Assembly: GCA_029582155.1 (NCBI GenBank)
Contig: CM055901.1
Location: 52,643,206 to 52,707,205, forward strand
Direction of reading: 5' to 3'
Length of the DNA stretch: 64,000 bases
Origin: Panopea generosa
Taxonomy: Eukaryota > Mollusca > Bivalvia > Adapedonta > Hiatellidae
A model generated the notes under the pieces. That model had not been told where the DNA came from, made no database searches, and saw only the letters and a program-made list of their open reading frames with translations. Below, in pieces: positions 14,267-52,200 of this stretch; positions within the stretch are counted from its first letter, which is position 1, and every line of letters starts with the position of its first letter. Made by a program: the position numbers and the translations under genes.

Positions 14267-14362
14267 AGCATATGTAATGTTGTCGTAAGATATAAATAGA
14301 CCAATATAGAAAATTTGAGTTAATTTTACTATTTGTCTATAGTATACTTACGACAACATTAC
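14267..14362 (+). repeat. internal complementary region of the DIRS element
   Basis: The first part is the reverse complement of the element's left end (8382-8420), and the second part is the reverse complement of its right end (14502-14558). The two join near 14305. In DIRS elements this region serves as the bridge that restores the ends during copying. Confidence 0.85.
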
Positions 14363-14377
14363 AAGCCCTCCCCTCCT

Positions 14378-14558
14378 CAGAAAGAGGAAGTTGCTTTCGC
14401 GCATGCGCATATTTATAGCAAAGGATAGTAACTCGTTACTTATAGAGGATAGTTAAGTCTTTCTGTTTTCGTGGATTATGGCAAATCGAGTATTAGCATA
14501 TGTAATGTTGTCGTAAGTATACTATAGACAAATAGTAAAATTAACTCAAATTTTCTAT
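14378..14558 (-). repeat. right inverted terminal repeat of the DIRS element
   Basis: 14378-14516 mirrors 8402-8540. The outer 42 bp (14517-14558) are unique to this end but match the internal complementary region in reverse, forming a palindrome of about 57 bp with 14304-14362. Confidence 0.9.
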
Positions 14559-23060: not shown

Positions 23061-23658
23061 TCCAGTTGTAACATAATTAACCACATTGGGTTGAAATGAA
23101 AGACTGTATTATGGCACCAACATTGGACAACTGAACAAAGAGAGTGAAATACAAATTCAGAACACAAGACCTGCCAAAGTAAATCAATTCAAAGATGTGC
23201 CTGTAGATAGCGCATGACATTGGAACTAAGTGACTTTGAGGTTGACATTAAAGGGACATTACCATATGGAAATATTTGTTATTGAACTAGAGGAATAACA
23301 ATTGTGACTATTTAAAACTGCTACATGTGCTGGATCTGTGAAGTGTTAGAATCAGATCTATACTGACAAGTGAGTACTATGCAGTATCTATCTGCACTTT
23401 TCAAATATTATTACAATATAAAGAATTTCAAGAAAATAAACATATTCCATGGTGACTTTCTGTCTTTAATCTAAAAATGAACATTCAAAACAAAAAAAAC
23501 AGATAAAAGAAATCAATTAGGTTTGAATATCAGCTAGTTTAATCTGACATGAAAGAAAGGCAGTAATCAATTACCACTGACACGAAGGACATACATCGAA
23601 CAATAACATTGTAACATAAGAAAATGAGATAAGAAAACAAGCAAAAAGTAGGAGAAAT

Positions 23659-25017
23659 ATGGATCAAACAATTGCCATAAGCCTTTCTTTTTTTGTTTTA
23701 TGGATCATATTTTCACAAACTTGTGGACAAACGTATGACAACACAATACAGCTACGATCTGACTTGTTGTCAGGATACGATGCTGATGTCATTCCCCTCA
23801 ATGATCAATCCCAAATCATGACTGTCAATATAACCCTGGTCCTGTACGCGATCATTGAAGCCGATTCAGTCAATGGGATTCTGACTACGGTCTCGGGCTT
23901 GATTTGTACTTGGTTTGATGAGAAATTAGTCTGGACGCCTTCTAACTATGGGAATACCAACTCGATGTTGATTAAAAAGACGTTAGTTTGGACACCGCCA
24001 GTATCCCTTGGAAATCCAATAGAATTTGTATCAATGGGCAAGCCATGGATGCACCTGGAAATTTATTCAAATGGTTTAGTTGATTTTCAACCTGGTGACA
24101 TAATTAATAGTGCGTGTACATTCAACATGAAATTCTGGCCGTTTGACAAACAAGTTTGTGATATAAGTTTTTTCACTTTTGGACATGGGCTAAATAGAGT
24201 AAATATACAAATTGGGGGATTCAATACCAACTTTCTGGCTTCAAATGGCGAGTGGACACTGGAAGAAACTTCAACCAATTCCAGAAGTAAATATGGTTTC
24301 TCTGAGGGCGTGTTCAGAATAAAGCTAAAGCGTCGTTCAATGTTTTATGTGTTAACTGTAATACTACCAATAATAGGTCTGGGTATATTGAATGGCTTGG
24401 TCTATGTTCTGCCATGTGATTCTGGTGAAAGAGTAAGTTACTCAATAACTATATTACTGGCAATGACAGTTTTCTTGACTGTAATAAGTGATTTGATGCC
24501 CAAAACATCAAACCCGCTGGCCCTTGTTTGTATCTTCATCACACTTGGTTTGTCTGCCAGCGTCTTGTGTACCTTTACGGTGATTCTTAATTTAGCCATC
24601 TATAATCGCAGTTCCAAAGTAAAAATAGGCCCGTTTTATCAAACGCTTGTACGAGTGACCTCAACCTCAAACTGTACAAAAAATCGCGTTTCAGCTATTA
24701 CAATAAAACAAGATGAAGAAGAAAATGTTATTAAATATAACTCTGTGGATAAAAATGCAAACAGGAAATTCTACAAGATAAAATCAACCAAACTCTTCAT
24801 GCTTGCAAAAAACAAACCAAAAATTGTGAATTCAAAATTAGAAGAAGCAGTTCCAAAGCTGAATGATTCTAGTGACAGAGATTTGGATATCACCTGGAAA
24901 GATGTCAGCTATGCCATTGATAAAATATTGTTTTTCGCTGTATTTTTGTCCATGATTGTACCTACAGCAGTATTTCTCATCTATTTGCCAACATCATCTG
25001 ACTATGTTGAACCATAA
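23659..25017 (+). CDS. intronless Cys-loop receptor subunit, nAChR-like (non-alpha), 452 aa
   Basis: Paralogue of 4657-5940, with the same layout and the Cys-loop at the same residues (C153-C167, FWPFDKQ). Signal peptide about 1-23 (ends TCGQ), extracellular domain, M1 after LKRRSM, M2 (GERVSYSITILLAMTVFLTV), M3, a longer lysine-rich M3-M4 loop of about 100 residues, and M4 ending near the C terminus (YVEP; the first gene ends YTEP). It has no Cys-Cys pair in loop C, and loop A reads VWTPPV in place of WxPD. It is a single exon. Expected role: subunit of a cation-selective ligand-gated channel; the ligand is not predictable. It shares strand and architecture with the first gene, so duplication followed or preceded retroposition. 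Start is the only ATG in front of the signal peptide. Confidence 0.9.
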   Translation: MDQTIAISLSFFVLWIIFSQTCGQTYDNTIQLRSDLLSGYDADVIPLNDQSQIMTVNITLVLYAIIEADSVNGILTTVSGLICTWFDEKLVWTPSNYGNTNSMLIKKTLVWTPPVSLGNPIEFVSMGKPWMHLEIYSNGLVDFQPGDIINSACTFNMKFWPFDKQVCDISFFTFGHGLNRVNIQIGGFNTNFLASNGEWTLEETSTNSRSKYGFSEGVFRIKLKRRSMFYVLTVILPIIGLGILNGLVYVLPCDSGERVSYSITILLAMTVFLTVISDLMPKTSNPLALVCIFITLGLSASVLCTFTVILNLAIYNRSSKVKIGPFYQTLVRVTSTSNCTKNRVSAITIKQDEEENVIKYNSVDKNANRKFYKIKSTKLFMLAKNKPKIVNSKLEEAVPKLNDSSDRDLDITWKDVSYAIDKILFFAVFLSMIVPTAVFLIYLPTSSDYVEP

Positions 25018-27885: not shown

Positions 27886-28059
27886 CTGAAAATCACTTTA
27901 ACATAATTTTTGAAATATGTGTGAAATAAATAAATCTAGATGAATAACTGTCTTGTTTAACTTCATTTACTTATCCTTTTCAGTCATAAATCAATCTACA
28001 GATAGCAACAATTCAACGTATGTTATAACTACCATTTTCTTGTATATTCTATATTGATA

Positions 28060-28765
28060 ATATAAGAAGTGGCCGCCCAAGATGGGCCCAAGTCGCTCAT
28101 CTGGTTTCACATGTCACTTCCTTTCAAATTTTGTATGGACTAAGCGCCTATTAAGAACTTATTTTAGTTATAGATGAGAAAAAATGAGAATTATCTGTTT
28201 TCTCATAGCATTTCCATGTAAAGTGAAAGTCACCCTGCAGGACTCAAATGAACCACTGTACCTAATTTCCAGCAGACTTTTTACATACTAGTATAAGTCC
28301 CCTTACTGGACCCCATTCAATCCTAGCCCCTTTATTTTTGAAACTCCCAGTCAAAAGAATTATTAATACCAAATATGAACGAATTTGATTGGACAGTTCT
28401 TGAGGAGATGATTTTTTAATGTAAATTTCCCTATGTTTAACTGACATGTTTCCGAGGCGGGGCCAATTTTGATCCTATGGTCATGGCTTGAACAAATTTG
28501 ATAGAAACTCATTAGATGATACTTCATGTAAAATATCAACGCTCCAGGCTCTGCACTTTTGGAGAAAAAGTACTGGTAAACCCCTAGGGCGAGGCCAAAC
28601 TTGACCCCAGGGTCATCATTTGAACAAACTTGAGAGACCTTTGTGTAAGAATGCTTCACACAAATTTTGGTGAAAATCTGTCAAGTGGTTTCAAAGAAGT
28701 CGTTTGAAGCAAAGTTAGCGACGGACAACAGACAGACGACTTTGGATGAAGGTAGATCACAATAA
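28060..28765 (+). repeat. long dispersed non-coding repeat
   Basis: Begins with AAGTGGCCGCCCAAGATGGG and ends after GACGGACAACAGACAGACGA. Contains repeated phrases on parent values (CATTTGAACAAACTTGAGAG, GGGTCATC) typical of bivalve interspersed repeats. Parts recur at 17815 and 29390. Minus-strand frames of 61 and 98 codons inside have no protein character. Confidence 0.5.
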
Positions 28766-28969
28766 CTCTAAATAACTCATCAGAATGCAGATTAAAATTA
28801 ATGCACACAAACCTGTCTTTTTTGGTAAAATTAAATTGTTTACAACATGCAATAGTTTAAACCACTGAAATAAGTGAACAAAGTTAAATGTAGCATTATA
28901 ATCAATTTTCATACATTCTGTTGTAAATGAATTATTGTAAGGAATAAATTGTTTATACTGTGCCCTCTT

Positions 28970-29215
28970 TATGTGGGTAACATTTTTAAATTTTTTGTAT
29001 AATGGAGTTCAATGCCATTTTCATTTAAGGTGTGGAAATCCTCCAGTTTTATTGGTGGAGAAAGTCCTCAGAATGAGTCTGAGAAGAACTGCTGTCCTTC
29101 TGCAATTTACTGGCAAACTTTCTCACATGAGGTTTTTTAACCGAACAGGACTCAAAGTAGATAATGATAGAATTAAGTTGTGCATGTTCAAACAATGATA
29201 CAAGGTATTTCCCAC
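28970..29215 (+). repeat. dispersed repeat sharing a 20-bp core with the 40-kb array
   Basis: Contains ACTGGCAAACTTTCTCACAT, exactly the core of the minisatellite at 40085-42115. A 75-codon frame covers it but shows no domain. It may be the source or a relative of that array. Confidence 0.4.
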
Positions 29216-29552
29216 AAACAAAAAATCATTGTGCTGTATTCTAGGCCAAAATTTATCAATCTGGATAGATCTCGGACAATTCAAACAAATACCTGATAAC
29301 AGTTTTGGCTCAAGAGTGAATAAGATACTAAACCAGAAAGTAATAATTTCTATATTATATTATACAAAATGATAATAAAAAACAAGTCCAAAGTAGCTCA
29401 CCTGATTCCATCAGTCGCTTCTTTTCAAATTTTGTTATACTTATATATATATAACCGTAAACATGCACAGTAACAGTGACCTTTTCACCCTGTAATATGA
29501 TCTTAACTTTCAATTTAGGAGCTCAATATGTTGCATACTGTCTCAAAATATA

Positions 29553-29818
29553 AGCCGGGTCCAATTAGCTCAGTCGGTTACGCGTCTGACTATCAATCCA
29601 GTGGTCGTGAGTTCGAATCCCTGCCTGGCAACATTCTCCGTGATGAATGATATATGACATTGTGTCTCATTATCATTCGTCTCTCACCCCTGTTCAAGTG
29701 GGAAAGTTATCAGTTACTTGCGGAGATGGGGTGTGCTCGAGTACTGGTTAATCCAAGAAAACAGTGGTTAGGTTAACTGATCGTCTGTTAGCCCTCGATG
29801 GCATAAAATGATGCTAAA

Positions 29819-29862
<44 letters not shown>
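29553..29862 (+). mobile_element. tRNA-derived SINE, full length with TCAA tail
   Basis: The best-preserved copy of the family: head TCCAATTAGCTCAGTCGGTT, B box GAGTTCGAATCC, body, CCTCGATGGCATAAAATGAT near the end, and a (TCAA)n tail of about 40 bp at 29822-29862. Confidence 0.85.
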
Positions 29863-29864
<2 letters not shown>

Positions 29865-31113
29865 GCTTGAGTACTTAAGGCATCCATAAAGATGCAAGCA
29901 ATACACACTTACAAACAGCTTGCACCCAAAAGTTTAATGGAGGTAGGACGAGGACACCGATACCAATGCCGGAGTGAGTATAATAAATCCTCTATTCATA
30001 GAATAGCTGAGTTACAGCCATAGGACATGTCTGAATTTAATTTGAGATGCTGAGTTGAATTCTAATCTCATGTAGTGTCACAAAGAAATATTGTGTACCA
30101 GTTTAAAATGAATAGGGCTTCATTGTGACAATGTTACATGGATGACATTGATGAATGGAAGATTACAAAAGCTCACCTATTTATAGACAATAGACAAAAT
30201 GCTCCGCAACTTTTACCTTCTAATTCAGATTTTTTCAAAGATGATCCAAATTCAAAATTGACTATTAAAATTATTTTAATGTGGTTTTACGCCATTTTTA
30301 ACACGCAACAGTACAGAGTTTTACTAGTGCAGGAAAACCTAAATGAATCGGAGTAGAAGTACCATCCTTCTGAAAGTTTTCTCAAATAAATCTTTTGGAC
30401 AGATGTCGGCTCAAACCTTCATGGTCAACGGTGAAAAGTAAGAGGTCACTAAATGATAGCGCCTCGGCCACAAAGGACCACAATGACTGATCAAAATCAA
30501 TATCAATCTGAAGTGCGACTTGTTCCGTACATCATATTAATGACTGCAATTCTAAGTGGGAAAATAATTTTAGTCCATCGGTGCATTAACCAAGTAAGGA
30601 AACCTCTTTCAATATATTAATTTGGTATGTTTTAATATATAGCCTTGTAGAAATAAGGATACAGTCAGTATATCTACAGGGTTCATACAGATAAGGACTG
30701 ATAAAAGTCAAGCACTTTTCAAGGTTAAAATTTTCAATTTCAAGCACTAAAATATATGAAATCTACATACATACTTACTGTACCTTACAAGTTCCTAACC
30801 AGCTATCCACAGGAACTAGTTACAATACATAATTTATATTCTATTTCCCTATATATACATAGTATAACAAATATATCTCCATTACTATTTTTTAAATTCA
30901 AACTCTTTTTTGTTAATTTTCAAGCACTTTTCCCACTGACATTAAAAAATAAGCACTATTCAAGGAGGTTTTTAAGAAATAAGCACTTCTCATATGAGAT
31001 GTTGAAAAGAATGTTTTTCTATAAATTTTGAAAATAAAGATATAGTGCATAGGAGTAAATCATCAGACAGGCCAGACTTTCACACAGGACAATATGAGGA
31101 TAAAATTACTTAC
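29863..31113. other. flank or intron of SLC38A9, no exon recognised
   Basis: A 72-codon plus frame at 30138-30356 (starts MDDIDEWKITKAHLFIDNRQ) looks codon-like but resembles nothing known. The stretch 30640-31030 repeats the words AAGCACTTTTC and is probably an old interspersed element. The next SLC38A9 exon was sought here on the minus strand and not found. Confidence 0.35.
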
Positions 31114-31220
31114 ATTATTTTCTGGATATTTCTGTGTGCGAGTGATGGACAGTACACTATTCTGGATAAAGTAGGCAAGGGCCGCCACACCAGTCAGAGC
31201 TGGGAATGTGTTCTTATACT
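31114..31220 (-). CDS. SLC38A9: SLC38A9 exon 10
   Basis: 107 bp, acceptor ATTACAG, donor AAT|GTAAGT. YKNTFPALTGVAALAYFIQN then SVLSITRTQKYPENN; human FPQLTGVLTLAFFIHN and QENN. Its first 42 bp are repeated with the acceptor about 24 times upstream. Confidence 0.92.
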
Positions 31221-34200
31221 CTGTAATATTGACATACATTATAACTATGATCAATAGTAACAGGGCCGCCACACCAGTCAAAGCTGGGAATGTGTTCTTA
31301 TACTCTATAATATTGACATACATTATAACTATGATAAATAGTAACAGGGCCGCCACACCAGTCAAAGCTGGGAATGTGTTCTTATACTCTGTAATATTGA
31401 CATACATTATAACTATGATCAATAGTAACAGGGCCGCCACACCAGTCAAAGCTGGGAATGTGTTCTTATACTCTGTAATATTGACATGCATTATAACTAT
31501 GATCAATAGTAACAGGGCTGCCACACCAGTCAGAGCTGGGAATGTGTTCTTATACTCTGTAATATCAACATACATTATAACTATGATCAATAGTAACAGG
31601 GCCGCCACACCAGTCAGAGCTGGGAATGTGTTCTTATACTCTGTAATATCAACATACATTATAACTATGATCAATAGTAACAGGGCCGCCACACCAGTCA
31701 GAGCTGGGAATGTGTTCTTATACTCTGTAATATCAACATACATTATAACTATGATCAATAGTAACAGGGCTGCCACACCAGTCAGAGTTGGGAATGTGTT
31801 CTTATACTCTGTTATATCAACATACATTATAACTATGATCAATAGTAACAGGGCCGCCACACCAGTCAGATCTAGAATGTGTTCTTATACTCTGTGATAT
31901 TAACATACATTATAACTATGATGAATAGTAACAGGGCCGCCACACAAGTCACAGCTGGGAATGTGTTCTTTTACTCTGTAATATTAACATACATTATAAC
32001 TATGATGAACAGTAACAGGGCTGCCACACCAGTCAGATCTAAAATGTGTTCTTATACTCTAATATCAACATACATTATAACTATGATAAACAGTAACAGG
32101 GCCGCCACACCAGTCAGAGCTGGGAATGTGTTTTTATACTCTGTAATATCAACATACATTATAACTATGATCAATAGTAACAGGGCCGCCACACAAGTCA
32201 CAGCTGGGAATGTGTTCTTATACTCTGTAATATTGACATACATTATAACTATGATCAATAGTAACAGGGCCGCCACACCATTCAGAGCTGGGGATGTGTT
32301 ATAATACTCTGTAATATTAACATACATTATAACTATGATGAATTGTAACAGGGCCCCCACACCAGTCAAAGCTGGGAATGTGTTTTTATACTCTGTAATA
32401 TTAACATACATTATAACTATGATCAATAGTAACAGGGCCGCCACTCCAGTCAGAGCTGGGAATGTGTTCTTATACTCTGTAATATCAACATACATTATAA
32501 CTATGATCAATAGTAACAGGGCCGCCACACCAGTCAGAACTGGGAATGTGTTCTTATACTCTGTAATATCAACATACATTGTAACTATGATAAATAGTAA
32601 CAGGGCCCCCACACCAGTCAGAGCTGGGAATGTGTTCTTATACTCTGTGATATTAACATACATTATAATTATGATAAATAGTAACAGGGCCGCCACACAT
32701 GTCAGAGCTGGGAATGTGTTCTTTTACTCTGTAATATCAACATACATTATAACTATGATCAATAGTAACAGGGCCGCCACACCAGTCAAAGCTGGGAATG
32801 TGTTCTTATACTCTGTAATATCAACATACATTATAACTATGATCAATAGTAACAGGGCCCCCACACCAGACAAGCTGGGAATGTGTTCTTATACTCTGTA
32901 ATATTAACATACATTATAACTATGATCAATAGTAACAGGGCCCCCACACCAGACAAGCTGGGAATGTGTTCTTTTACTCTGTAATATTAACATACATTAT
33001 AACTATGATCAATAGTAACAGGGCTGCCACACCAGTTAGAGCTGGGAATGTGTTCTTATACTCTGTAATATCAACATACATTATAACTATGATCAATAGT
33101 AACAGGGCCGCCACACCAGTCACAGCTGGGAATGTATTCTTATACTCTGTTATATCAACATACATTATAACTATGATCAATAGTAACAGGGCTGCCACAC
33201 TGTCAAAGCTGGGAATGTGTTCTTATACTCTGTAATATTAACATATATTATAACTATGATCAATAGTAATATTGATTCTGCAGTTTCATTGATAAATGCA
33301 ACGAATAAGTCCACCACTTTACTTATTTAGGGCCACACATATACCATGTTGTACATTTTGTGGACAACTCAAACACATCAGTCCACTATTGTACTTACTG
33401 TGAACATATAAGTACACCACACATATACCATATTGTACATTTTGTGGACAACTCAAAACACCTCAATCCACTTTTGTACTTAATGTGGACATAAAAGTAC
33501 ACCACACGTATACCATATTGTACATTTTGTGGACAACTCAAACACCTCAGTCCACTATTGTAATTACTATGGACATATAAGTGCACCACACATATACCAT
33601 ATTGTACATTTTGTGGACAACTCAAACACCTCAGTCCACTTTTGTACTTACTGTGGACATATAAGTACACCACACATGTACCATATTGTACATTTTGTGG
33701 ACAACACAAACACATCAGTCCACTATTGTACTTACTGTGAACATATAAGTACACCACACATATACCATATTGTACATTTTGTGGACAACTCAAACATATC
33801 AGTCCACTACTGTACTTACTGTGGACATATAAGTACACCACACATATACCCTTTTGTACATTTTGTGGACAACTCAAACACATAAGTACACTATTGTACT
33901 TACTATGGACATATAAGTAAACCATACATATACCATATTGTACATTTTGTGGACAACACAAACACCTCAGTACACTATTGTACTTACTATGGACATATAA
34001 GTACACCATACATAAACCATACTGTACATTTTGTGGACAACTCAAACACCTCAGTCCACTACTGTACTTACTATGGACATATAAGTACATCAAACATATA
34101 CCATATTGTACATTTTGTGGGCAACTCAAACACATCAGTCCATTTTTGTACTTACTGTGGACATATAAGTACACCACACATATACCATATTGTACATTTT

Positions 34201-37200
34201 GTGGACAACTCAAACATTTCAGTCCACTATTGTACTTAATGTGGACATATAGGTACACCATACATATACCATATTGTACATTTTGTGGACAACTCAAACA
34301 CATCAGTCCACTAGTGTACTTACTGTGGACATATGAGTACACCATACATATACCATATTGTACATTTTGTGGACAACTCAAACACATCAGTCCACTAGTT
34401 ACTTACTGTGGACATATGAGTACACCATACATATACCATATTGTACATTTTGTGGACAACTCAAACACCTCAGTACACTATTGTACTTACTGTGGACATA
34501 TAAGTACACCATACATATACCATATTGTACATTTTGTGGACAACACAAACACCTCAGTCCACTATTGTACTTACTGTGGACATATGAGTACACCACACAC
34601 ATACCATACTGTACATTTTGTGGACAACTCAAACACCTCAGTCCACTATTGTACTTACTGTGGACATATAAGTACACCACACATATACCATGTTGTACAT
34701 TTTGTGGACAACTCAAACACCTCAGTCCACTATAGTACTTACTGTGGACATATAAGTACACCACACATATACCATGTTGTACATTTTGTGGACAACTCAA
34801 ACATTTCAGTCCACTATTGTACTTACTGTGGACATATGAGTACACCACACATATACCATATTGTACATTTTGTGGACAACTCAAACACCTCAGTCCACTA
34901 TTGTACTTACTGCGGACATATGAGTACACCACACACATACCATATTGTACATTTTGTGGACAACTCAAACACCTCAGTCCATTATTGTACTTACTGTGGA
35001 CATATAAGTACACCACACATATACCATGTTGTACATTTTGTGGATAACTCAAACACCTCAGTCCACTATTGTACTTATTATGGACTTATAAGCACACTAC
35101 ACATGTACCATATTGTACTTACCTGAGACATTTACAACACAATAGCATGTTATAGACAAGTCCTAGGGTAAAAAAAAAGTTATATTATGTACTTACCATG
35201 GACATATTCAGGACTGGATGTATCATGAATATCCATATGTACTCCCCAGTCTATGGCATTCCTCATAACAAAGACTACCAGGTATGTGACAGAAACAGTC
35301 CCTGTATCATAAAGTAAACACAAACCTTGCTACAGCTTTATTTACAGATCTGAAGTAACGGAGATGGTAATTAATGTCTATTAAATATGACGTCTACTAA
35401 CTTAAAGGCTAATCAGACACTGGTATTAAATCCAACTGACTTAAAATGACAAATCAAAACAGTATATACTATTGAATAAAAATATAAATTACTTTTTAAC
35501 CAAAAATATCTGAATATGAATTTGATAATTAAATGCAAAATACTTATTTATGAATTTAGGTTAAGGCTTAAATATTAAAACATTTGGTGGAACAATTTTA
35601 GATATAAATCTAAACAATCCAAACCTTGTCCAAAATCTGTGATTCAAGATTTAAAAAAACAGGAGTACATCAATGAAAAATATTTAAAACATGGTATATT
35701 TCGTTTTTAAAATAAATATAAAATAAAGTGAAATAAATATTACCTAATGCATTAAATTTTGTGAAGAATGTCGGAGATTTAAAGTTGATGACAGGAAATA
35801 TAACAGCCACCAAAAACAGGGGAACCGTATTCTGCTCGTCCCAGTATTTGGCAAATGTTGCATCATGGGTGTGAGTATGATTGTTGCTTGTCGATGTAAA
35901 TGATAGAGACAGATTGGCATGAGGTGGTGATGGTGACCTTGAAGGGCAGATGGGATCTGTAATATATCATGTATAATCATAATAATGTAAAATACATCAA
36001 TTAGGCCATCCTTAAAAAAATTTGTTGCAGTGCTCCAGCCCATTTTTTTTTCATGTGGGTAGACAGGCAGCAAAATTTTTTTTTTGGCCAAATTTTACTT
36101 TTGCATAGTCATTTTAAAGAAAAATGGACATAAATAATGAAAAAATAAATGCTTTGAAAGTCAATAAAAATGTTTGGGAAGCTGCAATTTTGAGCGAGTA
36201 GGTAGGAGCACGGCAAACAATATGTTTTTTTACGGACAGCCTTAGTGACAGAATAACCTCTATATTTAACGTCAATAAAATAAGCAAATTAGTTTCCATC
36301 AATCATCATATAAGGTTATGTCTCAAAATAACTTCATTTTACCCAAACAAATTGATGTCATTAATCTAAAGTGATATTACACTATGTTTTAACCAAAAAT
36401 ATATCATGGCATTTTTGCATTGTAATTTACCGGTATGTGATAAAATTAACTATGATCAAGTTGTTACCAAGTTATGACAAGCCTCCAAAATTTGTTTCAC
36501 AAAGATAATCGATTTGTATTTCATTCTGACAGTATTGTATTTCTCTTATTTCTTGCCTACCACATTTACACAATAATTTCCAACAGTTGTTGTGGTTAGT
36601 TAATTGAATGGATGGTAAAAGGGAGATAACTAGTAATTATCTGTAATGTAAATGGTGAAACTTCATACTTAATGATTATGTTGCAAGTTATACTTTATCA
36701 TTAAACAGAGAGGTGTATTGACTGTGTGTGGTGATTTAATTGTGAAGTATTTCAAATAATAATTAAAAGAGAAACTGATAAATAAAATGGTTGAGGAAGA
36801 TTTCTGTTTGGGCAATTTTACTAATTACAATAAACCAGCCCTTGGGCTTTGAACTACACTAATAAATTATCTGGATTTAGTGGGCACTGTGTGTTACTCA
36901 TTCAATTCTCACAGACAGTGAGACACTCAATAGCCAGTAGAACTTTTTAAATGTATATATACTTGTCATGAACTATTGTGCATCAATATTCCTGATTTTG
37001 TATAGCTAAATTGAAATAAAGTTACAAAAAAAAAACCCAAAAAACAAGAGATGTGGAAATTCCCCGGAAACCATGTTTTTCAAACATTTTAGCTGTTCTG
37101 TAACTTTAACTCTAAATGTACATATGTACTTTATGTACATTGAAGCAGAAAATAAAAAAGCATACAATTCAAATTTTGTTTTTTTATTTGTAAAACACTG

Positions 37201-40200
37201 ATGCAATATTTTTGTTAAAAAAGCACGAAATAAAGTTTTTCTCTTGTTTCTGTGCTATTCACTAGTTGTTTGGCTAAAATATTACTTCCGTAATTCACAT
37301 TATGAAAGATGTAATGGGATTACACTCAGAAATAAACATGCAAATTCATAAAATAATACATCAATATTTTCACATTTTGCATTGAGGCTTAAGTGGTGGT
37401 ATTGTTTCCAGTGCCCACCGATAAGAGGTAAGTCACACATGCTCAACTGATAGCAACAATTTTTTAAACACGATGTTTGATTCTACAAATATATTACAAA
37501 ATGCATCAAACATGGCAAATTCAGCTGTGTTGTAAAAATTTTAAACGGACCTGTACATTTCTCTTATAAATCATTTGTATTTTTTTATAATATTTTTTGC
37601 CCCATGGCTATCAACTGAGCAAGGGCAGCGCAAAACATTTTCAAGATAAAATGTGCATGTTAATGGAGTTTCATTTTAATATATATCAGTACATCAATCC
37701 AAACTTTTTTAGTATCTTCATTAAAATAACAAAAGAAAAAGATTATATTTACTTTACCGCTAGAAAAATTGTATACGTTTGGTTGGGTAAACAATCAATT
37801 TTAGCATTTTTGACTACGTTAAGGGCCATAACTCTTAAGATAATGGTCAGAATTGGCTGGTTATCAAACTTGGCTCAGATTTTATAGAGTTACAGACTTT
37901 GTGTAAGTTGGCTTCAGTTCAGATAAAGAATACTCTAGTTCTTGAGTGGAAACAGTAAATTTGAGCATGTTTGACTATTAAAAGGGCCATAACTCTAAAT
38001 TTAATGGTCCATATTGGCTGGTTATCAAACTTGGCTTAGATTTTATAGAGAGGCACACTTTGTGCAAGTTTGCGTCAGTTCTGATAAAGAATAATCTAGC
38101 TATCGAGCGGAAACAGTAAATTTTAGCATTTTTGACTATTTAAAGGGCCATAAATCTAAAGATAATAGTCTGAATTGGCTGGTTATTGAACTTGGCCTAG
38201 AATTCATAGAGATTCATACGTTGTGTAAGTTTGCTTGAGTTCTGATAAAGAATAGTTTAGTTATTGAGCGGAAACGGGCAATTTTTGACTAATTAAAGGG
38301 CCATAACTCTGAATATAATGGTCTGTATTGGCTGGTTATCAAACTTGACCTCGATTTTATAGAGGTACACACTTTGTGTAAGTTTGGCTCAGTTTCAATG
38401 AAAAATGCTCTAGTTATTAAATGGAAACGAAAAACTTGAGGCCACCTATCCGCTTGATCGCCTACTTCCCCAATCTAATAACCAGGTTTTCAACTTTGAA
38501 AAACCAGGTAAAAAATAAAAATTTCTAAAATGTATATATGAAGTTGTGAGTTCAACAGCAGGAAACATGAACAGACTATAAATAGGAGAATCATGACAAT
38601 ATAACAAGAGCCAGATAACCGGTGTAAAAGAATCAGAAAAATGACATCCAAAAATGAGAGTTTAAGCAAACATTCAAACTACTGATTTCTTTGCAAACAC
38701 TCTCATCATTGGCACAAGGAAATTGTTTTTTATTGTTTTTTGGATTTGCTTTTTAATAGGATTTAACACCATTCTCTCAAAACATTACAGCTCTCACTTC
38801 ACAGTTGAATTTTGTTCTTTGTTCTTTCCACGGTAAAAAAAGAATTCCACATAGAATTTCTTTTTCATAGCAAGAATGTATACCCACATAAAAATGCACA
38901 ATAATTGATAGGTTGACCAGATTGTTTTTTTTTTAAAGAGGATGAATTGACACTCTGAGATATTTAAAAAAAAAAAAAGTCCTCAAATGCTCATAAATAC
39001 ATGCATCTGTTGAAATCCTATAAAAGTCCCTTTTTTAAAAGCAGTGATGTCTAATTGCAGTATATGCTATGTCACCTTTTGCTATACTCATCTGCAGCAA
39101 GAAATCACACAAAAAATTTCAAAACCAAATTACATATGTCTTTTTTAAGTGAAGAAACATGTTACCATGGGAAAAAAGGGGCATTATTGTGTAGCAAAGA
39201 CGTTCAGGTTCATGACCTAAACAGTGAAAGGTTAGTGATCTTGAGCTTTAGCCTACAAACACTAGAATGAGCAGGTATTTAGCCATTTAAAGGTTTTAAA
39301 GTGAAATCCTATTACAGAGGTCTGCTGCATACCTCTACATGTTCAACAACATACAAAAGCAAACCAGCTAGTTGAATCAGTATGGTATCAATCCAGGGGT
39401 TGTGAGTTTGAATCCCTGCCCAGTCACAGCCTTTGTGATGACTGACCAAGTACTTTGCTCTATGGTCATGAACCTCCAATCTCTGTATATGTGAGATAAG
39501 ATGTACCTAGTACTGGTCAACTGCCAAGCAGATTCCAGTAATGACAATTACATGTACTGACCGCCATTATATAACTGAAATACTGGAGAAAAAAAGGCCC
39601 AGAACAATATGCAATAATCAACCCATCTGGGCAACCCCACCCTGATTCTCAACCAATAGGTATAACAATTACACATTCAAATCAGATAACCAAAACGTGA
39701 GGTGAACCCAGTTGAGTTGTAGTTAATAAATGTTAATTACATAATTATCTACTTTAAAGTGCAAAAAAGTAACTAAAATAAGCATATACAAACCATAACT
39801 GCTAGAAGAAACAGCACCTTCTCCGTTAATCTGATCTGAAAATATATTCAAACTCTGAAAATGATTTTGCAAAATTATAATACATGTAGTTAATAATTCA
39901 TTTTATTAAAATCTATTTTAACTGTAGTGACAATCGAGTATTTTAACTGTTATATATTTCCTCCAAAGCCAATTGGACATTACTTTGAATAGGGTTAAAT
40001 GTCATTTTAACACATTACAGGTTACATGTGGCAATCAATTGTACTGGAAGAGGGAAACATCAGACATGTGAACAAGAATCTGAGTAGATCAATCAACCTT
40101 CAACAAGTAACTGGCAAACTTTCTCACATCCAGTAGAACCATCAACCTTTAAAAAATAATTGGCAAACTTTCTCACATCAGCAGAACCATCAACCTTCCA

Positions 40201-43200
40201 CATGTAACTGGCAAACTTTCTCACATCAGTAGAACCATCAACCTTCAACAAGTAACTGGCAAACTTTCTCACATCCAGTAGAATCATCAACAAGTAACTG
40301 ACAAACTTTCTCACATCAGCAGAACCATCAACCTTCCACATGTAACTGGCAAACTTTCTCACATCCAGTAGAATCATCAACAAGTAACTGACAAACTTTC
40401 TCACATCAGTAGAACCATCAACCTTCCACAAGTACTTGACAAACTTTCTCACATCCAGCAGAACCATCAACCTTTAACAATTAATTGGCAAACTCTCTCA
40501 CATCCAGTAGAACCATCAACCTTTAAAAAATAATTGGCAAACTTTCTCACATCAGCAGAACCATCAACCTTCCACAAGTAACTGGCAAACTTTCTCACAT
40601 CCAGTAGAACCATCAACAAGTAACTGACAAACTTTCTCACATCAGCAGAACCATCAACCTTCCACATGTAACTGGCAAACTTTCTCACATCCAGTAGAAC
40701 CATCAACAAGTAACTGACAAACTTTCTCACATCAGTAGAACCATCAACCTTCCACAAGTACTTGACAAACTTTCTCACATCCAGTAGAACCATCAACCTT
40801 TAACAATTAATTGGCAAACTCTCTCACATCCAGTAGAACCATCAACCTTAAAAAAATAATTGGCAAACTTTCTCACATCTGCAGAACCATCAACCTTCCA
40901 CAAGTAACTGGCAAACTTTCTCACATCCAGTAGAACCCTCAACAAGTAACTGGCTAACTTTCTCACATCCAGTAGAACCATCAACAAGTAACTGACAAAC
41001 TTTCTCACATCAGTAGAACCATCAACCTTCCACAAGTACTTGACAAACTTTCTCACATTCAGTAGAACCATCAACAAGTAACTTGCAAACATTCTCACAT
41101 CCAGTAGAACCATCAACAAGTAACTGACAAACTTTCTCACATCAGTAGAACCATCAACCTTCCACAAGTACTTGACAAACTTTCTCACATTCAGTAGAAC
41201 CATCAACAAGTAACTGGCAAACTTTCTCACATCCGGTAGAACCATCAACAAGTAACTGACAAACTTTCTCACATCAGTAGAACCATCAACCTTCCACAAG
41301 TACTTGACAAACTTTCTCACATTCAGTAGAACCATCAACAAGTAACTGGCAAACTTTCTCACATCCAGTAGAACCATCAACAAGTAACTGACAAACTTTC
41401 TCACATCAGTAGAACCATCAACCTTCCACAAGTACTTGACAAACTTTCTCACATCAGTAGAACCATCAACCTTCCACAAGTACTTGACAAACTTTCTCAC
41501 ATTCAGTAGAACCATCAACCTTCAACAAGTAACTGGCAAACTTTCTCACATCCAGTAGAACCTTCAACAAGTAACTGGCAAACTTGCTTACATCCAGTAC
41601 AACCATCAACCTTCCACAAGTAACTAGTAAACTTTCTCACATCAAGTAGAACCCCCAACCTTCCACAAGTACCTGGCAAACATTCTCACATCCAGTACAA
41701 CCACCAACCTTCCACAAGTAACTGGCAAACTTTTCACATCCCGTAGAACCACCAACCTTCCACAAGTAACTTGCAAACTTTTCATAGCCAATAGAACCAT
41801 CAACAAGTAACTGGCAAACTTTTCATAGCCAGTAGAACCATCAACCTTCCACAAGTAACTGGCAAACTTTCTCACATCCAGTAGAACCATCTACCTTCCA
41901 CAAGTAACTGGCAAACTTTCTCACATCGTGTACAACCACCAACCTTTCACAAGTAACTGGCAAACTTTTCACATCCAGTAGAACCACCAACCTTCCACAA
42001 GTAACTGGCAAACTTTCTCACATCCAGTAGAACCATAACAATTCCACAATTACTGGCAAACTTTCTCACATCCAGTACAACCACCAACCTTCAACAAACA
42101 ACAGGCAAACTTTCTTACACGAACATGAAGTACAACATGTCTGTAAAGTTTCATGAATATCAAACCAATAGCTCGGAAGAAGTCGCCACAGACAAAAGTT
42201 CAATAAACAGGAAGTGAAGTGGGTAGTGATGGCTGCTCACACTAGAGGTTGGTGGCCAACTTCATCGTTGAGATAAAACATATTAATATAAACCAGACTT
42301 AAGATCCTGAAAGATGAACACTATTGTTAACTCGACAGATTTTTTTATATTGTTATTGTGATGCAGCTATAAAGAGAAATTTGGAGAATTGTATTCCACT
42401 TATATTAGACTACAAAGATTACAAAAGTTTTACAAAACTCCAAGAAATCAATATAAAAAATTCAATTAGTATTAAATTTAACCTATTTATTGAAGGAAAT
42501 ATAATGAGTAAAAACTTCTAACAGTTTAATAAATGGGAAAGTAACGCTCTGAAATAGAAATCTTCTTTATCAAAAAATTTACCAAGTTTCATTAAAACGA
42601 TTCAAGTCTGTCTGTCAAATTAAAGATTTGTTTGAAATTAAAACAAATTGGAAAGACAAAAAGAAGTTCCTCTGTATTTTAATACAAAATCAATGAATGT
42701 TATTCTGTTCAAAACAAATGCTACCTACGGTAAATATATGAGACTATGTTATACATAAAGTTTGACATCAGTATCCAGTACACAATCATGCCCCCTAGCA
42801 GCGTGAGAAGGGACGAGACGAAAGCCAAACCTTCCGCCCACCGACCCAAATATTCTCGGCATACATCTGAAAACTCTATAACTTCATTATCAAGCTCTGA
42901 AAAATGAAGAAAAGTAACAAATTAAAATACAACGTTTTCAAAAATGCTTTTATATACAGTAGAACTTCGATCGCTGGAACTCCACAGGGCTGGTGGAATC
43001 AAGCCTGGTACAACAATCATCGTACATGGTGTACAAGTACGTTTGTGAGCGTGTTGTTGAATCCCATGTGTACGCTTTAAACAGGTGCAACAAATGATGT
43101 AAATGATGCATATTCTTGTTTACTTAGAAAATCAAATACACAAGAAAAGATAATTTTCAAATATAATTAATTGTATTACACAATAATTAATTAATTTACC

Positions 43201-46200
43201 TTTTTAACATCATATATTTTACATGAATAAATAGCTATATTTAGCTTTTGATGTGCGTGAGAATGTTAATAACATGATAATCACACTCCGGTTTTACCAG
43301 GTCCTTCCCAAAGTTGCTTGGCAACAGTCAAAGAGGCTGACATAGTTATCCCCACCCGTTACCGGGTTCTTCACTAAGTTGCTCAGCCGTTTCTTCTTTA
43401 GGTAAATGTGTTAATAAGACTGAACATTCGCATGTTATATACATTTATAGGGTAAAATTATATGTGATACTCTTTACTTTTTAATGTTTGTAATATAAAT
43501 TGGTTTTTAATTTAATTTCACCTCAAATTACAAATAAACATCAAAATTTAATTAAGAATCAAATTAATTTCTCTGATTTTCTTTAACTTCGAACAGCTGT
43601 TCGATTGAAAGGTGTGAAAAATACAGGCAAGTGTGTGGGCGGGACCTAATTTCTAGTTCGACTGTTCCACCTATCAGTGTTCTAGCTATCGTTGGTAGAA
43701 CAATAGAAATTAAATAGGAATTTGACAGGGACCGGGTAAGTTGTTCAAGCTATCTGTGGTGTTCCAGCCAACTTAGTTCGAGCTATAGAAGTTATACTGT
43801 AGTTATTTTGTCATTACATTATTTCTATAAAGCTTCCAGCTAATGCTCGTGACATTGAAACAGACAACAAAACATTTCAAAGTGTTATAGCACCTGTATA
43901 ATGTGTATGTACATGAGACATGAAACTACATGTAAAGGTATGTCACAAACTTGAACTTTGCAATGTGACCGCAGCTGAAGTTGACTTTGTATGCTGGGTT
44001 CTGCATGTTGACTCCATGTGATGAATAAATGTGCCATGCACCTATGCAAACCAGAGAGAACATCATTTTCTTTTGTGTAATAAAAAAACATATGTCTTTA
44101 AATGGCTATTGTATATTTTTCTTTTCGAAATAAATAATACATATATTTTGATAACGATTCAAGAATGTTTCATTTAAAAAAAACATGTATACACTTGTTC
44201 AACTTACATCTGAAGTCCGACTAATATATACTTACTAAGGCCCCTGAGAGAGTGGAGAATTCTGTAACTGGTATACAGCATAAGTAAGCCCATCAGAACC
44301 AATAATACAATGCCAGTCGCAAAGCCAGCCTGTAATGTATTAGTAGGAACAACTGATGAAACAAACAGGGTAGAAATCATAAACAAGATGTATACTATAA
44401 AGAAATATAATGTTATAAACATGAACAATGTAATAAACATGAACAAGTAATAAACATATTGAATAATGTAATAAAGCATAGACTTAATAAAATAATAAAC
44501 ATGAACAATGTAATAAACATTAATAAGTAACAAACATTTTGAATAATGTAATAAAACAAACAATGTAATACAAATAAACAATGTAATAAACAGGAACAAT
44601 GTAACAAACATGACAAAGTGATTAACCTGAACAATGTAATGAAAATATTGAATAATTTAATAAATATAGACAATTGTATACAAATAAACAATGTAACAAA
44701 CATGATCAAGTGATTAACATGAGCAATGTCATGAACATATTGAATAATGTAATAAACATAGACAATGTAATACAAATAAACAATGTAACAAACATAACCA
44801 AGTGATTAACATGACCAATTGACTAACCTGAACAATGTCATAAACATATTGAATAATGTAATAAACATAGACAATGTATGCCAAAATGCAATCTAGAGTT
44901 ATGGCTCTTGTCTGTGTGTGTTCCATTGATGATGGTGAACACACATGCGTAGTTTCATTCACATCCAATGATTGGTTGCATAGATATCTTAAGCTTAAAG
45001 GCAAAAGTTTAACCTTGGTGTCCACAGACGATGACAACACCGGGGTCATTGCAATATCTCTCCTTGGACTTCGTCCCACCAACGTAACAAGTATCGATGC
45101 CTCAAACAAGTGTGTTTTAAAGGAAAAGGAATGTAAAGGGAAGATAAATCTGTTATTAGTCAAGACAAAGTCTCTGCACTTTCACACACTGCTCAACATC
45201 ATGTTGGATTCCCGTTTTACTTTTGAAAATATGCTTTATTTGGAAGGTAGAATATATCAAACGCACCTGGTTTATTTGGAAGGTAGAATATATTAAACTC
45301 ACCTGGTTTATGGGGAAGGTAAAATTTATTAAACTCACCTGGTTTATGGGGGAAGGTAGAATATATTAAACTCACCTGGTTTATTTGGAAGGTAGAATAT
45401 ATTAAACTCACCTGGTTTATGGGGAAGGTAGAATTTATTAAACTCACCTGGTTTATGGGGGAAGGTAGAATATATCAAACTCACCTGGTTTAGGAGAAAG
45501 GTAGAATATATCAAACGCACCTGGTTTATTTGGAAGGTAGAATATATTAAACTCACCTGGTTTATGGGGAAGGTAGAATATATTAAACTCACCTGGTTTA
45601 TGGGGAAGGTAGAATATATTAAACTAACCTGGTTTATGAGGGAAGGTAGAATATATTAAGCTAACCTGGTTTATGAGGGAAGGTAGAATATATTAAACTC
45701 ACCTGGTTTATGGGGAAGGTAGAATATATTAAACTAACCTGGTTTATGAGGGAAGGTAGAATATATTAAACTCACCTGGTTTATAGACCAGGGCATGCTC
45801 AACAAAGAGGTCCCCATCATAGTGTTCCACAAGGAAAATCTACAAAACATCAACCATCTTTCAATTCATGTTGTTTATTTTACAAAAATAATTATCAATA
45901 TATTAAAAGTAATGATAAAATAGGTAGAATTAATGGTTAATTCTAGTTTTTCCAACACTTAAGTAGGCACGAATATTTTATTTTTTATTCTCTTCAGTTT
46001 TCTGATATTTAAGTAGACCTAATTCACAGTTAATTCTTGTGTTTCTGATATTTAAATATGAAACCAACAATAAACAGTTTAATTTATAACTGGTTTCTAT
46101 TAATACGTTTTAATGATGTCATTTATTCCAACAAGTGGCTTAATTCAAGTAACATAGAAGAGCTGGAATTGAACCCACATCCTTAGCAATGAGAGCTGAG

Positions 46201-49200
46201 TGATTTTGAGATGGCACCTTAAACTACTCAGCCATAGCGGATCATTACAGACTTTCTATTAAAATATTACATTATATTGTATCAAAAGAGAACCAGCTTG
46301 GATGAGATCTTACCATTTGTATCAATATTACTTATATTGTATCTATAGAGAACCAGCTTGGTTGATATTTCAGTATTTATATCAAGATTACTTATCTTGT
46401 ATCTAAAGAGACCCAGCATGGTTGAGATTTCACCATAATGTATCAATAGTACTTATATCGTATCTACAGACAAACAACTTGGTTGAGATCTCAGAATTTG
46501 AATCAAAATTGCATATACTGTATCTACAGTGATCCAGCTTGGTTGAGATCTCAATATATGTGTCTATATTACTTACACAGCGATCCAGCTTGGCTGAGAT
46601 CCCAATACATGTGTGTCTATATTACTTACACAGTGATCAAGCTTGGTTGAGATCCCAATATATGTGTTTAAATTACTTACACAGTGATCCAGATTGGTTG
46701 AGATCCCAATATATGTGTGTCTAAATTACTTACACAGTGATCCACCTTGGCTAAGATCCAAATATATATGTGTGTAAATTACTTACAAAGTGATCAAGCT
46801 TGGCTGAGATCCCAATATATGTGTCTATATTATTTACTCAGTGATCCAGCTTGGTTGAGATCCCAATATATGTGTCTAAATTACTAACACGGTGATCCAG
46901 CTTGGCTGAGATCCCAATATATGTGTCTAAATTATTTACACGGTGATCCACCATGGTTGAGATCCCAATGTATGTGTCTAAATTACTTACATGATGATCC
47001 AGCTTGGTTGAGATCCCAATATATGCATCTTAATTACTTACACAGTGACCCAGCTTGGCTGATATCCCAATATATGTGTCTATATTACTTACACAGTGAT
47101 CCAGCTTGGCTGAGTGAGATCCCATTATATGTGTTTAAATTACTTACACAGTGATCCAGCTTGGTTGAGATCTCAATATATGTGTCTAAATTACTTACAC
47201 AGTGATCCAGCTTGGTTGAGATCTCAATATATGTGTCTAAATTACTTACACAGTGATCTAGCTTGGTTGAGATCTCAATATATGTGTCTAAACTACTTAC
47301 ACAGTGATCTAGCTTGGTTGAGATCCCAATATATGTGTGTCTAAATTACTTACACAGTGATCGAGCTTGGTTGAGATCTCAATTTATGTGTCTAAATTAT
47401 TTTCACAGTGATCCAGCTTGGTTGAGATCCCAATATATGTGTCTAAATTACTTACACAGTGATCCAGCTTGGTTGAGATCTCAATATATGTGTCTAAACT
47501 ACTTACACAGTGATCTAGCTTGGTTGAGATCCCAATATATGTGTGTCTAAATTGCTTACACAGTGATCGAGCTTGGTTGAGATCTCAATATATGTGTCTA
47601 AATTACTTACACAGTGATCGAGCTTGGCTGAGATCCCAATACATGTGTGTCTAAATTACTTACACAGTGATCGAGCTTTGCTGAGATCCCAATATATGTG
47701 TCTAAATTATTTACACAGTGATCCAGCTTGGTTGAGATCCCAATATATTTGTCTAAATTACTTACATAGTGATCCAGCTTGGTTGAGTTCCCAGTATATG
47801 TGTCTAAATTACTTACACAATGATCCAGCTTGGTCGAAATCTCAATGTATGTGTCTATATTACTTACACAGTGATCCAGCTTGGTTTAGATCCCAATATA
47901 TGTGTCTAAATTACTAACACGGTGATCCAGCTTGGCTGAAATCCCAATATATGTGTCTAAATTACTTACTTAGTGATCCAGTTTGGTTGAGATCCCAATA
48001 TATTTGTCTATAACTCTTACACAGTGATCCAGCTTGGTTGAGATTCCAATATATTTGTCTAAATCACTTACTCAGTGATCCAGCTTGGTTGAGATCTCAA
48101 AATATGTGTCTAAATTACTTACATAGTGATCGAGCTTGGTTGAGATCCCAATATGTGTGTCTTAATTACATACACAGAGACCCAGCTTGGCTGAGATATC
48201 AATATATGTGTCTTAATTACTTACACAGTGATCCAGCTTGGCTGAGATCCCAATAAATGTGTCTAAAGTACTTACACAGTGATCAAGCTTGGCTGAGATC
48301 CCAATATATGTGTCTAAACTACTTACACAGTGATCCAGCATGGTTGAAATCCCAATATATTTGTCTAAATTACTTACTTAGTGATCCAGTTAGGTTGAGA
48401 TCCCAATATATTTGTCTATATCACTTACACAGTGATCTAGCTTGGTTGAGATCCCAGTATATGTGTCTAAATTACTTACACAGTGATCAAGCTTTGCTGA
48501 GATCCCAATATATGTGTCTAAATTACTTACACAGTGATCCAGCTTTGCTGAGATCCCAATATATGTGTCTAAATTACTTACACAGTGATCCAGCTTGGTT
48601 GAGATCTCAATTTATGTGTCTAAATTACTAACACAGTGATCCAGCTTGGTTGAGATCCCAGTATATGTGTCTAAATTACTTACACAGTGATCCAGCTTGG
48701 TTGAGATCTCAATTTATGTCTAAATTACTTACACAGTGATCCAGCTTGGCTGAGTGAGATCCCATTATATGTGTCTATATTACTAACACAGTGACCCAGC
48801 TTGGCTGAGATCCCAATATATGTGTCTATATAACTTACACAGTGATCCAGCTTGGCTGAGTGAGATCCCATTATATGTGTTTAAATTACTTACACAGTGA
48901 TCCAGCTTGGTTGAGATCTCAATTTATGTGTCTAAATTACTTACACAGTGATCCCAATATATGTGTCTGTATTACTTACATAGTGATCCAGCTTGACTGA
49001 GATCCTCGTATTCGTATGACACTACTAATAAGAAACACACTGGGTACCACATGGTCAGGCATCGTCTGTAATTAAACAATAATGGGTTACAGTAGTGACA
49101 GATTAGCACAAACAAATAATGAAAAGGTGTTTTATAATTAGGCCTATGTGCCCAGGCCAAAATACTTCAAAACTTAATTTAATTAAAAGGCTATATAAGT

Positions 49201-52200
49201 TCTTCAATAAAAATCAATGAAACCATAAATGACTTGCAGTTTTTATGGAGCCAGTCTAAAATCATGATCACTTGAACGCTTATCATACATTAAACATACT
49301 TAAATATTACTTCTGAATGAAGATGAACAGGTCATTAAGCAGTGATATTTATTATTAGAAGCCAGCATATTATTCTAATAAGCCAGGTCTGATTTGTTCA
49401 GTTGGTAATGCATCTGACTATCAATCCAGGGGTCGTGAGTTAGAATCCCCACCTGGCCAGTCTTGGTTGTGATTGATATACTACATTGCATCTCAATATC
49501 ATTCATCTCCCTCCGCTGATTCAAGTGTTATCTGTTATCAGTGAGATGGTGTGTGCTCGAGTACTGGTTCATCTGCCAGGATTCCAGAAAACAGTGGTCA
49601 GTTATCTAATGATCTGTTAGACCTTGAGACAATATTTTGAGTGCTGCCACACTGCGGTATCATGCTGCAGATACATGGTATGATACCTCACCCAGTCACA
49701 TTATACTAACACTGGGCAGACAAGACCCGAGGGCTAAGCTAGGAAGTACCAATTTTGCAAGTCTTTGATATGACCCAGTTGGGGATAAAATCTACAACCT
49801 TCCACACTAGACCCCTTTTCATTATAACTTGAATTTGAATACTAGATGTAGTATAAAATTACCATTAGTACTAAAGGTAACGGGTGAAGGAAATGTCCAA
49901 CTGAAGAATACCAAAAGAGGATCAGTCAGTGGGGGAGGGAGTTTTTAATCCAAAATTCACCCCAACAGAGTTATCCCACTTATCCCCTTGGGTTCCTTTT
50001 ATGGTAGAACAAACATGTGAAGAGTTCAAATGTTGTTTAACTGTTTTCCTATATATATTTTCTTCACTGGGGAGTATTGTAATAGTAACATACATTAATA
50101 TAATAGTAAACTTTTGTAGTTTGTTGTTGTGATGGTCGTGAAAATTTGAAATAAATGATTACTGTACAAATATTTTATTGAAACAAATGTTTTAAACATT
50201 ATTTTTATCACATTTATTGGTGGAGGACCCATATATTTATAACATAACATAACATGACATAAAAAGCATAATATAACATGACATGACATAACATATAAAA
50301 CATGACATGACATATAAAACATTACATTACATGGCATGACATATAAAACATTACAAAACATGACATTAAAACATTACATAACACAACATGGCATGACATA
50401 CAAAATATTACATAACATGACATGGCATGACATATAAAACATTACATATCATAACATGACATATAAAACATTACATAACATGGCATGACATATATAACAT
50501 TACATGACATGACATATAAAACATGACATGGCATGACATATAAAACATTACATGACATGGCATATAAAACATTACATATAAAAACATGACATATAAAACA
50601 TTACATGACAGTCATGACATATAAAACATTACATGACATGATATATAAAACTTTAAATAACATAACATGAATAACATGACATTGAAAACATTACATAACA
50701 CTGCATGACATATAAAACATTACATTACATGACATATAAAACATTACTGTCATGACATATAAAACATTACATAACATGACATGACATATAAAACATTACA
50801 TGGCATGACATGGCATGACATATAAAACATTACATAACATGGCATGACATATAAAACATTACATAACATGGCATGACATATAAAACATTACATAACATGG
50901 CATGACATATAAAACATAACATCAAAGGCTTTTAAAAACAGATTACCACTTACTAAGGTACTTTCACTATGTGGTGCCAGCCTGCTGTAGTATTTATATC
51001 TGCTGACAACAGCAGATGTGTGACTGTCATGGCTGTCATAACTGTTGCTTGTACTATTTATAGATGCATAAGCTACTGGCTGTCTCAGGAGTCCATCAGA
51101 TACACGTCGGTCTGGTCTGGGTCTTGGAGGATTTCTGTAACAAAGAATACAAAAATAGTAAAGTAATGCAATGTGGTACTGTATAATTAATGCAAAATGA
51201 GATGAGAAGAAACGAGACAAATACAATATACTTAACACCTCTGAACAAGACACTTTTTCCTCATATGATTAGTACTGGTTCTACACAGTAAGATTTTAAG
51301 CGTGATTTGTCCAAGTTGTACAAACTTGTTTCACAATCAAAGTAAAATAAATAAATTCAAACTAAACTTATAGCCTTTAATAATGCATGGTTTTGAATAT
51401 TGAATAGATTTTTCACCCAAGATCTACTATCATTTTATTGGTTCATATTTCATCTAGAACACAATTAATTTGTTAATTTTGTTTAAATATGAAAAAATTG
51501 TTGGCATAAAATTGAAAATAAGGTAAAAAGTTTTTAGTTATTTTATTCATGTCAAATCTTGATTTGATACAATACTCCCACTTGCGTTTTTAATGGCGTT
51601 AAGTGTACAACCCCTTAACATGTGGAATATAATATAATTTACCATTTCTTTAATCCATACAATATGAGTTTACATGGCAAGCCAGGAGCTCAATGTTACA
51701 GTTTTAGGTTCTGTGACACATGGATGATCTTTTAAATTGGACAGCCAGCCAAACACAGTACGCATACTGTACAGTCATGTATTTAGATTCCATTTGTACA
51801 CAGGGGTCATGAGTTCGAATCCCCCGCCCGGCAACAGTCTCTGTGATGATTGACATACGACATTGTGTCTCATTATCATTCGTCTCTCACCACTGATTCA
51901 AGAGGGAAAGTTATCAGTTACTTGCAGAGATGGGGTGTGCTCGATTACTGGTTAATCCCAGGAAACAGTGGTTAGGTTAACTGATCGTCTGAAGGAGGAG
52001 ACATCACAATGAACTTGAGTAGACCATCGTCCTTTCACTTTCTTACATAAAGCCAAGGTCACTAGACACAATAAAACTGATAACAATATATACAATATCA
52101 CACAAGTAAACATGGACAATACAACTGCTAACGATAACCCATCTAATAAAACATTGTTAACAAAAATTTTAAAATTTTATTTACATCTCACTCTCATTAC

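Follow-up and report, generated by a model that had tools for sequence, protein, structure and literature searches.

Intron 9 of the SLC38A9 gene of Panopea generosa consists almost entirely of two tandem arrays that resemble its own splice junctions

A stretch of 64,000 nucleotides from the bivalve Panopea generosa (positions 52643206-52707205 of one contig of a 1.47-Gb assembly with 39 contigs), called the window in the following, was analyzed, which carries the gene SLC38A9 on the minus strand. About 96% of intron 9 of this gene was found to be made of two arrays of 84-bp units, and only about 160 of its 3,976 bases lie outside of regular units. The units of array 1, at the 5′-end of the intron, resemble the donor of exon 9, and the units of array 2, at the 3′-end, contain the acceptor together with the start of exon 10. 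It is likely that the intron is composed of two neutral minisatellites of the kind known as “mirages”, i.e., tandem repeats over exon-intron boundaries, which would be removed by predicted splicing at the outermost sites.

The gene, its strand and the junctions of exons 9 and 10 had been proposed in a first-pass annotation, and the proposal was substantiated by exon mapping and alignment with homologues. The exon numbers were taken from that annotation, as our own gene model is devoid of the first exons and perhaps of one small exon. When a segment of 314 residues of SLC38A9 was compared with known proteins, the best matches were from bivalves (74% for the top match, 73% for Mya, 72% for Ruditapes, and 71% for Mercenaria). 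The read-through from exon 9 to exon 10 (..SSPEYVH/EYKNTFPALTGVAAL..) is colinear, with the exception of one residue, with the zebrafish SLC38A9 chains of structure 6c08. In 17 homologous proteins the parts encoded by exons 9 and 10 are plainly joined, with few residues differing just before the join, and a unit-sized insert at this join was present in none of the 17. Intron 9 thus extends from 35196 to 31221 on the minus strand, with the real donor GT at 35196-35195 and the start of exon 10 at 31220. Both arrays recur about 250 kb away on the same contig (52423793-52429092) in a second copy of the gene, which could be either an allele or a paralogue; the next exon is likewise present there.

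The first unit of array 2 is partial and the last one is the real exon 10 junction, leaving 24 extra copies, and the array reaches 43 nt into exon 10. The earlier count of about 24 acceptor units and about 21 donor-like units, each with a period of 84 bp, was accurate, and so was the estimate that less than 100 bp separate the arrays (52 bp). In 23 upstream units, i.e., all but the partial one, the exon half agrees with the real exon 10 start at a mean of 40.0 of 42 positions and at no fewer than 37. For 20 units of the second gene copy the mean is 37.2 and the minimum 35. Judged by sequence similarity, the link between array 2 and the exon 10 acceptor is beyond doubt. As the start of exon 10 is conserved in relatives, the exon is the source of array 2 and came first.

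For array 1, the consensus TATGTCCACAGTAAGTAC was compared with the 18 bases of the real exon 9 donor edge, TATGTCCATGGTAAGTAC. In the 21 units of the window 17 of 18 bases match in 3 units, 16 in 11 units, and 15 in 7 units. In the second gene copy 16 bases match in 23 of 41 units, and 13-15 in the remainder. With a 23-base exon 9 donor edge, 14 further near-copies (at most 5 mismatches) were found in the region 33200-35300, whereas none of 100 shuffled edges had a single one. When 40 bases of the donor edge were aligned locally to the unit consensus, 11 of 3,000 dinucleotide shuffles scored as high, and the match of 12 bases on the exon side was equalled by 13 of 20,000 random 12-mers. Tandem Repeats Finder did not extend array 1 over the edge of exon 9. 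Taken together, the link between array 1 and the exon 9 donor, as read from these alignments, is good, but it is weaker than the acceptor link.

The two arrays differ in their internal structure. Each unit of array 1 is composed of a 42-bp half unit and its duplicate (the observed value was reached by 2 of 2,000 shuffles), and one half unit begins at about 35122, ahead of the 21 full units. In contrast, a doubled half unit was not seen in array 2, where 1,861 of 2,000 shuffles reach the value. Kinship between the arrays was rejected, because their similarity was reached by 853 of 1,000 shuffles on the same strand and by 915 of 1,000 on the opposite strand. Thus, their sequences are unrelated; that they differ in spite of the equal period had been noticed at first sight. 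The features are summarized in Table 1.

Table 1. Features of the SLC38A9 gene in the window (a slash marks the boundary between exon and intron sequence).
Feature	Positions	Strand	Description
Upstream exon, source of the 51-bp donor-edge array	48980..49065	-	3′-end ..GGATCACTAT/GTAAGTAAT
51-bp array	46526..48954	-	about 47 copies of exon end and donor; 5′-end of the intron following exon 48980..49065
Next mapped exon	45776..45839	-	3′-end ATAAACCAG/GTGAGTTTA
36-bp array	45235..45784	-	15 copies, crossing the donor of exon 45776..45839; CCAG/GTGAG and CCAG/GTTAG units alternate where read
Exon 9	35197..35301	-	105 nt; 3′-end ..TATGTCCATG/GTAAGTAC
Strongest donor-like GT of intron 9	35121..35122	-	CAG/GTAAGTAC, CAGGTAAGT, 13.0 bits, 74 nt inside the intron
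Array 1	33324..35088	-	21 units of 84 bp; donor-like consensus TATGTCCACA/GTAAGTAC..
Spacer between the arrays	33272..33323	-	52 bp
Array 2	31179..33271	-	25 units of 84 bp: 42 nt of the intron 9 end (..ATATTACAG) and 42 nt of the exon 10 start
Exon 10	31114..31220	-	107 nt; the exon half of array 2 is derived from the first 42 nt

It is proposed that short tandem duplications happened to span the donor and the acceptor junction of intron 9, and that they expanded to the 84-bp arrays via slippage or unequal exchange. Because the outermost exon edge and splice site stay intact with each duplication of a junction, any additional copies would be intronic and would be removed. The outermost donor, at exon 9, would mostly be joined to the last acceptor, beside exon 10. 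We infer this order of events, the neutrality of the arrays and the splice sites used; splicing at the outermost sites would be analogous to the amphioxus mirages discussed below.

The same gene contains two further arrays at donors. The 23-base donor edge of the exon ending at 48980 has 46 near-copies including the real edge (maximum 1 among 100 shuffled edges), and that of the exon ending at 45776 has 15 including the real edge (maximum 0 with shuffled edges). When the rule based on Tandem Repeats Finder was applied to the mapped SLC38A9 exons, arrays crossed 2 of 10 donors and 1 of 11 acceptors, the exon 9 donor being uncounted. Between 52500 and -9500 (window coordinates), arrays account for 23% of the sequence. 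Further large arrays, at 61150-63182 and 50239-50922, are situated near or upstream of 5′ exons, and one of them contains GTAAGTAAAT on the plus strand.

Four junction-linked arrays within one gene might point to an agent that targets splice junctions and seeds arrays there, be it a mobile element, an element of the introner type, or the repair of breaks that are coupled to transcription. The frequency of arrays at exon edges was determined with a sample of 71 exons, i.e., the best 30 of 81 myosin-head matches and the best 41 of 91 dynein AAA matches; SLC38A9, which had been chosen for its arrays, was kept outside the count. The edges were set by an automatic rule, which failed to place 4 acceptors and 1 donor of the 71 exons and which used the second GT of the array as the donor of the myosin exon L028. 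The dynein stretches mostly had about 330 bp of flank, and in a few cases 100 bp or less. Arrays crossed 4 of 137 edges (2 of 70 donors and 2 of 67 acceptors), compared to 59 of 807 intron positions 60-260 bp from an edge (22 of 415 on the donor side and 37 of 392 on the acceptor side; up to six control positions per edge, which are not independent) and 1 of 426 exon-interior positions. All four cases are obvious by eye, e.g., in L028 a segment of 31 nt of exon and 10 nt of intron is tandemly repeated about five times. Near a further myosin exon (L042, 1742-2164) a 36-bp array ends about 7 bp before the acceptor, the AG not being covered (edge judged by eye). Junction targeting was thus not seen in the myosin and dynein sample; edges were crossed no more often than intron positions, and therefore they do not look targeted and minisatellites would simply run across them. 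In addition, all reported hits of the units of arrays 1 and 2 were in the two copies of SLC38A9 (all counts being lower bounds), in contrast to the many dispersed copies of introners. A targeting agent is therefore quite improbable. The results suggest, based on a small sample, that junction-crossing arrays are not rare in the Panopea generosa genome.

The first-pass annotation had also stated that the intron offers many potential donors and many potential acceptors. In the window an AG is present in 25 of 25 units of array 2, and a CAG in 23 of 25. The donors are mostly weaker than the real one. With a weight matrix, the real exon 9 donor was scored with 9.8 bits. The GTAAGT sites that array 1 has in the window reached 5.7-6.7 bits, with A replacing G at position -1. 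The exception is site 35122 (Table 1), the sole donor in intron 9 that outscores the real one. Splicing at this site would lengthen the message by 74 nt and introduce an early stop, as read from the sequence, and the site is lost in the second gene copy, which reads CAGATAAG. Masking of the array donors by RNA structure was rejected, as their mean accessibility was 0.43 versus 0.31 for the real donor in the window, and 0.54 versus 0.37 in the second copy.

With 84 being divisible by 3, the use of upstream acceptors would add multiples of 28 codons in frame, and array 2 might be a source of length-variable isoforms with n x 28 additional, membrane-helix-like residues (EYKNTFPALTGVAALLLLIIVIMYVNIT). 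Upstream of exon 10 the reading frame stays open over 7.9 units in the window and over 16.9 units in the second copy, the AG is kept in every unit, and the best 19 residues of the 28-residue unit have a mean hydropathy of 2.59. However, 5 of 25 units in the window have a stop in the exon 10 frame, several have 1-bp deletions, and the 17 relatives are without an insert of such a size. Furthermore, the distinct substitutions in the exon half fit no coding constraint. In the 45 upstream units of both copies, 10 are silent and 22 are changing, compared to 8.9 expected silent ones, and a silent count of 10 was reached by 410 of 1,000 draws. By distinct changes, the upstream copies of exon 10 show no clear coding constraint. 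Use of the array for isoforms is therefore quite unlikely. There is also a slim chance of a leaky choice among the 25 near-equal acceptors, which would add the 28-residue membrane-helix-like cassettes stepwise, their possible number depending on an array that is unstable and not the same in the two gene copies.

Selection for redundant splice sites, which would buffer the loss of the real site, could be in line with the presence of a GT in 59 of 62 donor units and of an AG in 47 of 47 acceptor units of both gene copies. But changes of the GT (3 of 124) are not clearly less frequent than the array mean of 0.037, and 35 of 84 columns are invariant in array 1 and 37 of 84 in array 2, so that two invariant AG columns of the latter say little. 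There is no clear sign of selection on the splice positions of the arrays. As most array donors are, in addition, weaker than the real one, such a buffer is very unlikely.

The two gene copies differ in their unit numbers, with 21 units in the window versus 41 in the second copy for array 1 and 25 versus 22 for array 2, and in their private variants. In array 1 of the second copy a block of about 12 units is repeated; of the 29 pairs of units spaced by this distance, 12 are identical at 83-84 of 84 positions. Array 2 units are closer to their own array than to that of the other copy (81.5 versus 80.4 and 81.5 versus 79.9 of 84 in the two copies); for array 1 this is true in the second copy (83.1 versus 79.5 of 84), but not in the window (80.5 versus 80.9). 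The real exon 10 unit is identical to the array 2 consensus in the window, and it differs from the consensus in the second copy. An assembly error is a conceivable origin, as the two very similar copies, separated by about 250 kb, may be two alleles that were assembled one after the other; however, both copies hold both arrays with differing unit numbers and private variants, and junction arrays also occur in unrelated genes, making this origin extremely unlikely.

The divergence between the copies is 0.0-1.0% per kb over 7-27 kb and 46-75 kb, with 2.2% at kb 62, and short outer stretches are 98.8% (near -1 kb), 98.0% (near -7 kb) and 100% (82.6-83.2 kb) identical. The region 28000-46000 of the window, which holds intron 9, forms an 18-kb island with a divergence of 1.3-8.6% per kb, including one repeat-rich kb with 21% (kb 39 is without a value). 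Gene conversion, a haplotype mosaic or two assembled alleles are possible reasons for this island.

Several observations weigh against two neutral mirage minisatellites as the origin of intron 9. The two unrelated arrays share a period of 84 bp. Array 1 agrees with the exon 9 edge at 15-17 of 18 bases, and 108 bp of intron precede its first regular unit. All four crossing arrays of the sample are in myosin exons, and 0 are in the 41 dynein exons. The splice dinucleotides are well kept in both gene copies. Lastly, when silent changes were counted by occurrence over the whole array 2 unit, which counts shared variants repeatedly, an excess over chance was seen in the window (41 versus 28.7 expected; 300 draws, range 16-42) and in both copies pooled (68 versus 54.2 expected; range 35-70). 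These changes are mostly in the intron half (26 of 41 in the window and 42 of 68 in both copies), and the second copy alone shows no excess (27 versus 25.1 expected).

Additional features were observed in the window. Two uninterrupted frames for Cys-loop receptors, at 4600-5937 and 23623-25014 on the plus strand, are located inside the about 32-kb intron 10 of SLC38A9, i.e., opposite to its coding strand. Both encode the domains Neur_chan_LBD and Neur_chan_memb, the second of which is partial in the frame 4600-5937. The comparison with the second copy also revealed an inverted repeat of about 160 bp (8380-8539 and 14378-14537; 96-97% identical), which flanks about 6 kb including 4 kb with a higher G+C content. 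The element 8380-14537 is possibly a DNA transposon.

Intron 9 offers one real and 24 near-equal acceptors as well as about 18 weaker donors, and it is thus a case for studying how the spliceosome chooses among equals, be it the site nearest to the donor, the site nearest to the next exon, or a site by chance. In classic experiments a splice site was duplicated once or a few times. The sampled rate further points to exon edges being reached fairly often by minisatellites when a genome is rich in repeats. This is relevant to gene prediction and to the possible origin of new introns by boundary duplication.

The view of the first-pass annotation that no comparable system has been described could not be maintained, because boundary-spanning mirages have been published for amphioxus genes. 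Besides the papers cited below, the comparison with published systems drew on PMC4526556, PMC2572611, PMC3087553 and PMC3902484. The name stems from amphioxus Adh3, and mirages are present in the globin genes BflGb6 and BflGb9, in Adh3, and in TnC and PGBD5 (the latter two in lancelet). In the globin genes either or both boundaries may be duplicated, and reverse transcription PCR is said to show regular splicing. Amphioxus mirages have minisatellite-like boundary-spanning units at the 5′- or 3′-ends, many of them with AG/GT signals, and their unit number differs between two haplotypes, as it does here between two gene copies. The present case differs in being from a mollusc, in having as many as 41 units, compared to 6 and 3 in BflGb6, in affecting both ends of one intron, and in the sampled rate of 4 of 137 edges. 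Of the hallmarks of mirages, intron 9 has the boundary-spanning units on the acceptor side, and on the donor side by the similarity in 15-17 of 18 bases alone; it also has AG/GT signals in the units and a unit number that varies between copies.

A minisatellite with multiple splice donors was reportedly described by Turri in 1995 for the human gene IFI6, with a 12-bp unit and on the donor side only. According to a paper citing that work, two downstream repeat units of IFI6 (also named G1P3 or 6-16) act as donors. In both genes a repeat supplies donors, but the extra donors are reported as used in IFI6, and they were only scored here. Human genes in segmental duplications have internal tandem repeats of the minisatellite type at exon-intron boundaries, which can alter introns (PMC2812944); they average about 4 repeats of 30 bp, vary between paralogues, and many are retained in exons. 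The polyubiquitin gene UBC contains an array of dual-specific splice sites (PMC10809524), so that splice signals are tandemly repeated inside this gene as well. However, its repeats are coding and its AGGT sites are used both ways, whereas array 1 has no AG/GT in its consensus donor. Among the open-licence papers listed, no mollusc case of junction-spanning arrays was found; for cone-snail genes, PMC3862624 mentions microsatellites in introns, and junction arrays were not met in the passages concerned. Taken together, the arrays of SLC38A9 are of a kind that is already known, to which an intron affected at both ends, high unit numbers, and a sampled rate in a mollusc are added.

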